Source: Ahrensia sp.
Lineage (GTDB): Bacteria; Pseudomonadota; Alphaproteobacteria; Rhizobiales; Rhizobiaceae
Assembly: GCA_002706335.1 (NCBI GenBank)
Contig: PAKZ01000023.1
Span: 1 to 64,000 of the forward strand
DNA length: 64,000 nucleotides
Reading direction: 5' to 3'
The notes beneath the pieces are model-generated. The model was given only the letters and a program-made list of their open reading frames with translations. It was not told the origin of the DNA and ran no database searches. Within the stretch, counting starts at the first letter, position 1; every line of letters begins with the position of its first letter. A program made the translations under genes and the position numbers. Shown one piece after another: positions 358 to 64,000 of the stretch.

Positions 358-558
358 ATCTCCCCCTTGGCGGGGGAGAAAGTGATTTCCTGGGCTTAGC
401 TTGCTAAGTCCTTGGAAATCACAAGAGAGGGGGTCGCGATGTCCAACATATGCGCGACCGCTTCTGCTTCGGCGCCTTGCCCCCTCTCTGGCAAAAGCTA
501 AGGACTTGGCGCTGCCAAGCCCAGGCTTTTGCTTTCTCCCCCGCGAGGGGGGAGATAC
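358..558. repeat. Composite intergenic palindromic repeat: two ~77-bp units in inverted orientation around a central hairpin (RIME-like class)
   Basis: Unit 358-434 and reverse complement of unit 481-558 share TATCTCCCCC..GGGGGAGAAAG...TGGGCTT.GC...GC.AAGTCCTT...AGAGAGGGGG; internal stems differ but both pair; spacer contains ggtcgcgatgt/acatatgcgcgacc. Confidence 0.75.
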
Positions 559-63934: not shown

Positions 63935-64000
63935 GCGGTCGGGAGGTTGGTGGTGGACGAGCCACTCGCCAACCGGGTCAGGTCCGGAAGGAAGCAGCCC
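63935..64000 (+). ncRNA. ffs: Small signal recognition particle RNA (4.5S), truncated by window end
   Basis: GGTCAGGTCCGGAAGGAAGCAGCC (conserved SRP RNA tetraloop/loop core) preceded by ggttggtggtggacgagccactcgccaacc stem; 5' end approximate. Confidence 0.9.

Follow-up and report, generated by a model that had tools for sequence, protein, structure and literature searches.

What are the two palindromic units that face each other near the start of the window (the whole 64,000-nt stretch of DNA analysed here), and what could have put them there? Both are double hairpins of ∼78 nt, arranged convergently, with unit A at 357-433 on the forward strand and unit B at 480-557 on the reverse strand, so placed that their tails face one another over a 46-nt spacer. 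Two inverted units with a common backbone had been claimed in a preliminary description of this DNA, and both the claim and its coordinates (right to within 1 nt) were borne out. Each unit runs from H1, a pyrimidine/purine hairpin (TCTCCCCC-loop-GGGGGAGA; CTCCCCC-GGGGGAG), through H2, a variable hairpin of outer stem, bulge and inner stem, to the G-rich tail AGAGAGGGGG, and the backbone common to A and B is TATCTCCCCC...GGGGGAGAAAG / CTGGGCTT...AAGTCCTT / AGAGAGGGGG. Unit A, a type-1 unit by its match to covariance model R1 (G000:C23:355-443, 92.9 bits), consists of H1 at 357-379 (TATCTCCCCC / GGGGGAGA, loop TTGGC), the H2 outer-stem arms GTGATTTCC (382-390) and GGAAATCAC (414-422), the inner stem CTTAGC/GCTAAG (395-408) and the tail AAGAGAGGGGG (423-433). 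In the inverted unit B, also of type 1 by the same model (G000:C23:471-559, 89.4 bits), the outer arm that reads GCAAAAGC on the forward strand (491-498) pairs with GCTTTTGC (525-532), while the inner stem CTTGGC/GCCAAG lies at 505-519 and the H1 arms TCTCCCCC/GGGGGAGA pair at 535-555.

The stems thus differ between the units and are nevertheless paired in both, the outer stem at 9 of 9 positions in A and 8 of 8 in B, and the inner stem in each. This pairing had been called perfect, which is right for the stems, but the ninth outer position of B and the bulges beside the inner stem are unpaired. Folding is strong for the dimer (z = -10.9 relative to dinucleotide shuffles) and for single units (z = -6.6 for A and -4.7 for B, relative to mononucleotide shuffles), and in the minimum free energy structure of the whole dimer the units do not fold apart, A being paired to B along a single long hairpin. 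A third hairpin proposed for the spacer (GGTCGCGATGT..ACATATGCGCGACC, 432-459) can form (z about -3), but none of the five further dimers examined has a counterpart in its spacer; judged from these sequences the hairpin looks specific to the window copy, and it was ruled out as a conserved part.

Further genomic copies had been set beforehand as the test of these units, and they proved numerous. BLAST identified 11 places in the same genome (E ≤ 0.01), and a covariance model based on 16 units, with type-1 units called at 45 bits or above, identified about 22 in this assembly (G000) and 2-11 in each of five relatives of the genus (about 11 in G003, 5 in G001, 4 in G005, and 2 each in G002 and G004). 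Beside the dimer, positions 1-350 of the window are a mosaic of other repeats, including a short palindrome at about 229-279 (CCCGCCAG..CTGGCGGG), with 16 matches in the same genome, of which most lie at contig ends, while G001 has 24; many contigs of this genome start or end in repeats of this kind, and copies are therefore hidden by the assembly. At the opposite end of the window, a bacterial small SRP RNA begins (63942-64000) and is truncated by the window end.

Across the copies, the H2 outer stem falls into classes (GTGATTTCC, GCAAAAGC, GCAAAAAC, GCGATTTC, GCCTTTTC), nearly all fully paired. In the unit alignment, 95.8% of outer-stem cells are paired and seven of the nine pairs have changed on both sides, and the covariation score over both helices (0.383) exceeds that of shuffles (0.136 ± 0.019) and of slid partners (at most 0.204). 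The covarying arms that had been predicted are therefore real. The accompanying argument, that covariation marks a fold maintained in DNA or RNA, goes further than this for RNA, as the same covariation could arise by selection on an RNA fold or a DNA fold, by arm-to-arm copying within the palindrome, or by exchange of stem modules. The strong fold and the compensatory changes are what one would expect if the units were regulatory RNAs or terminator-like hairpins selected in transcripts, their neighbourhood to any particular gene being incidental, a reading to which we give little credence. No Rfam family scored above its gathering threshold in 300-640, the best of the weak, sub-threshold similarities being MIR1437 and whalefall-1, and membership of the units in an RNA family was rejected; moreover, the copies lie in unrelated contexts and are polymorphic for presence and absence. 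The association described below bears on the same question.

Dimers like that of the window, with no gene between the units, were also found in G001, G003, G004 and G005 and on a Phyllobacterium plasmid. The last of these (L285:798-990; Phyllobacterium zundukense plasmid NZ_CP104969.1) is a convergent dimer of the same type between two ABC-transporter genes, and its stems too differ between the units. A rule that paired units must differ in their H2 stem was tried and rejected: all 19 genus pairs differ, yet random pairing gives this with p = 0.03 to 0.08, and the H2 stems match in the distant pairs L116, L129 and L155, so that differing stems within a pair are only a trend.

Overlooked in the preliminary description was a gene that such units enclose elsewhere, which suggests that the units are the ends of an element encoding a DUF559 protein and would explain the inverted-dimer layout. 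The full-length form is present elsewhere in the same genome, with a DUF559 gene standing between a unit and its inverted partner. This genome has three DUF559 (PF04480) genes, all enclosed by inverted units and each by its own unit type: a type-1 pair at C6:167783-168307, type-2 units (GGGGGAGATGTC..GACAGAGGGGGG), and type-3 units (CCTTCTCCC..GGGAGAAGGTGG..GGATGAGGGG, also CCTTCTCCC..GGGAGAAGGTGGATGCG..CGCAGACGGATGAGGGG), which resemble RIME. Compared with the full-length elements L034 and L061, the ends are the same in the window dimer and the gene is replaced by the 46-nt spacer (434-479, forward strand); for this reason we read the dimer as non-autonomous. The explanation that we favour, and regard as probable though far from secure, is that 357-557 is a non-autonomous, REPIN-like inverted pair from a DUF559-encoding palindromic element, and that the nuclease probably mobilises it.

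The arrangement recurs throughout the six genus genomes, where a unit lies just upstream of the start of 13 of 13 DUF559 genes, mostly with 3-20 nt between unit tail and start codon, and an intact inverted unit lies downstream as well in nine. From its sequence, the tail looks like a Shine-Dalgarno motif that serves DUF559 as its ribosome binding site; by pairing with the H1 arm, it could hold back expression of the gene. At five loci (L002, L003, L176, L185, L203), the tail of a solo unit leads into a conserved sequence that resembles a start, GCGATGTCGGCCATCAA..TACGGGCC, and recalls the position of the DUF559 start where no DUF559 is encoded.

Beyond the genus, we scored the best inverted match between the 200 nt upstream of the domain and the 300 nt past the stop at 114 DUF559 loci, mostly proteobacterial. 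Matching inverted flanks were found at 42% of loci (score at least 18) or 32% (at least 25), compared with 0 of 1091 shifted windows at the same loci and, for mechanically called neighbouring ORFs, 2 of 583 and 0 of 583 respectively; at the other 58%, matched flanks were undetectable, and an E. coli locus (L284) has none. Examples, with their scores, are the DUF559 of Sinorhizobium meliloti Ak57 pSymB (102), Deinococcus proteolyticus (47) and Azospirillum lipoferum (25). H1 and the tail are common to both sides in many aligned flank pairs while H2 differs, which generalises the pattern first described for the window, although the test of this pattern in the genus is suggestive only. A flanking rate of 42% versus 0.3% is not what an incidental link would give, which further weakens the regulatory-RNA reading. 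Type-4 dimers (L057, L059, L063, L259) have the opposite polarity, H1 to H1 with tails outward; in three of them (L057, L059 and L063), DUF559 lies downstream of the two units.

To our knowledge, DUF559 is a common family to which no role has been assigned. The product of the flanked gene matches PF04480 with an E-value of 1e-36, and its AF2 model (pLDDT 89, pTM 0.81) has as its best Foldseek matches NGO0050 (3hrl, E 3e-7) and the homing endonuclease I-Bth0305I (3r3p, E 3e-4), with Vsr matched weakly. The invariant residues E24, D53, E64, D66 and H70 fit, as acidic residues plus a histidine, a PD-(D/E)XK/Vsr-type site. The protein is predicted to be a small nuclease of the PD-(D/E)XK type that folds like I-Bth0305I and Vsr. 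In Caulobacter, the DUF559 protein VsrA triggers a DNA-damage response in the absence of a methyltransferase (PMC12907096), a phenotype consistent with nuclease activity in vivo. A role as a defence system was considered and rejected, as PADLOC gave no match. No link of DUF559 to palindromes appeared in the open-access literature, as covered by titles, abstracts and look-ups (subscription papers and preprints lay outside the scope), nor was such a nuclease linked to palindromes in the open-access COG2852, Vsr and RAYT literature; priority for the link is not certain.

In the genus, units and DUF559 have diversified together. Among the 13 genus proteins, six unit types correspond to six DUF559 clades, with five changes on the protein tree (the minimum) as compared with nine for host genome; two orthologous insertions are shared by descent, so that the match rests on fewer than 13 independent events. 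Similarity of the proteins correlates with that of the upstream units (Mantel rho 0.18, p 0.009, and 0.225, p 0.001). Units of types 2-4 beyond the flanking ones occur in 7 of 7 genomes with the cognate DUF559 and in 2 of 11 without it (Fisher p 0.002, which is optimistic given shared ancestry), and type-1 units number about 22 and 11 in the genomes with the cognate gene, compared with 2-5 in those without. Where units occur without their cognate DUF559 (types 2 and 4 in G001; 2-5 type-1 units in four genomes), either the gene was lost or the units were moved by something else.

Filled and empty sites demonstrate that the elements are mobile. Upstream of the carboxylase gene PCC-alpha, the genes of G005 overlap by ATGA, while G000 and G003 hold a complete type-1 unit-DUF559-unit element at this junction; downstream, there is an ATGA overlap in G001, G002 and G005, while G000 and G004 hold a type-2 DUF559 element. 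Units and gene therefore arrive together, between genes that are left unbroken, and the insertions show no evident target-site duplication. For the window copy itself, no empty site was found among the five relatives, because its downstream gene is absent from them, and the PCC-alpha junctions were used instead. The joint arrival bears on a second explanation, in which DUF559 is a homing-endonuclease-like parasite of pre-existing dimers, the window dimer is an empty target, and the palindromes spread by other means. The fold match to I-Bth0305I and the gene-free dimers in five genus genomes would suit such a parasite; the junctions that lack DUF559, however, lack units too (G005 upstream; G001, G002 and G005 downstream), and unit type tracks DUF559 clade, so that we think this explanation unlikely.

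The layout invites a third reading, namely that the unit is a common RIME/REP-type repeat whose movement is due to host recombination or to a RAYT-like transposase that escaped detection, DUF559 being just a frequent neighbour or an enzyme that repairs hairpin DNA. Inverted pairs, a flanked gene and coevolution are just what has been described for RAYT/REP (PMC2817692), and the Caulobacter protein has been interpreted as a Vsr-like repair nuclease (PMC12907096). We nonetheless hold this to be highly improbable: the RAYT (Y1) transposase domain PF01797 was found in none of the six genus genomes, with the control search positive in E. coli and Caulobacter, which rules it out as the mobiliser, and the adjacency of DUF559 to the units is both direct, the start codon following the tail so closely, and type-specific. 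Spread by phages or plasmids was likewise rejected, DUF559 being rare on both (2 of 50,697 phages; 44 of 72,556 plasmids), which argues for a chromosomal, RAYT-like lifestyle.

For a DUF559-encoding element, we infer that the protein cuts the unit, and where it does so, and that it mobilises solo units and dimers in trans. The nuclease would recognise the hairpin of its cognate unit in extruded or single-stranded form and nick it at the base or tail, after which repair or replication would copy the unit pair, with or without the gene between, into intergenic gaps; this scheme, drawn by analogy with RAYT/REPIN (PMC2817692), is probably how the element works. A wider proposition is that there is a separate and widespread class of bacterial mobile palindromes (Alpha-, Beta- and Gammaproteobacteria, Deinococcus) whose double-hairpin units are recognised and spread by a lone DUF559/Vsr-like PD-(D/E)XK nuclease, and by neither an HUH nor a DDE transposase; on this our judgement is evenly balanced.

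Among known systems, REP/REPIN with RAYT (TnpA_REP, PF01797) comes closest, comprising palindromic intergenic units, inverted pairs and a flanked small DNA-processing gene that coevolves with the units and is linked to their copy number (PMC2817692). Here too there are inverted palindrome pairs (in the window, in four more genus dimers and in the Phyllobacterium plasmid dimer) and a small gene that has an inverted unit on either side and coevolves with the units, but the gene encodes the PD-(D/E)XK/Vsr-like DUF559 instead of an HUH Y1 transposase, and each unit, of ∼78 nt, is formed by two hairpins and the G-rich tail AGAGAGGGGG, with no GTAG/CGTC tag beside it. RIME are palindromic intergenic repeats of Rhizobiaceae of unknown function (PMC2573895), for which no mobiliser is described in the open-access literature examined. 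The general likeness to rhizobial intergenic palindromes noted earlier is supported in that the window units are palindromic, intergenic and repeated in the genome, but the type-1 backbone differs from that of RIME. Freestanding Vsr-fold homing endonucleases have a fixed target site and are not known to have flanking hairpins; the predicted DUF559 fold is that of the I-Bth0305I type, but each DUF559 gene here sits between its own palindromic units. The Bradyrhizobium repeats Br-REP1 and Br-REP2 are also alphaproteobacterial palindromic intergenic repeats, some occurring as three stem-loop groups, but have another consensus and, in the accessible part of their report, no associated gene (PMC5082802).

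Catalogues of alphaproteobacterial intergenic palindromes go back three decades, and the open-access literature examined names no mobiliser for them. Our results suggest that many unexplained intergenic palindromes, in rhizobia and other bacteria, are spread by DUF559 and not by a palindrome transposase of the E. coli type. The anatomy of unit and gene joins these orphan palindromes to a family without an assigned role and makes both testable. If true, it would explain orphan palindromes, RIME-like ones among them, in RAYT-free genomes, give DUF559 a function, and represent convergent evolution of a RAYT-like system with an unrelated enzyme, a new route for short repeats through genomes and operons. 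Were the nuclease function demonstrated, these elements would form a class of their own; meanwhile, because that role is one that we infer, they are placed as a variant of REP-type elements.

Two further observations concern insertion sites. Both PCC-alpha junctions (L254-L259) are insertion hot spots across species, occupied by DUF559 elements, a type-4 dimer, a further family of palindromes (CATCCTCGGGCTTGACCCGAGGATCCATTC, L255) and two small, unrelated ORFs. In Sphingomonas parapaucimobilis, a DUF559 gene lies within the suf operon, in the gap between sufB and sufC (L282; NZ_CP155753.1:112589-112999), with a palindrome upstream.
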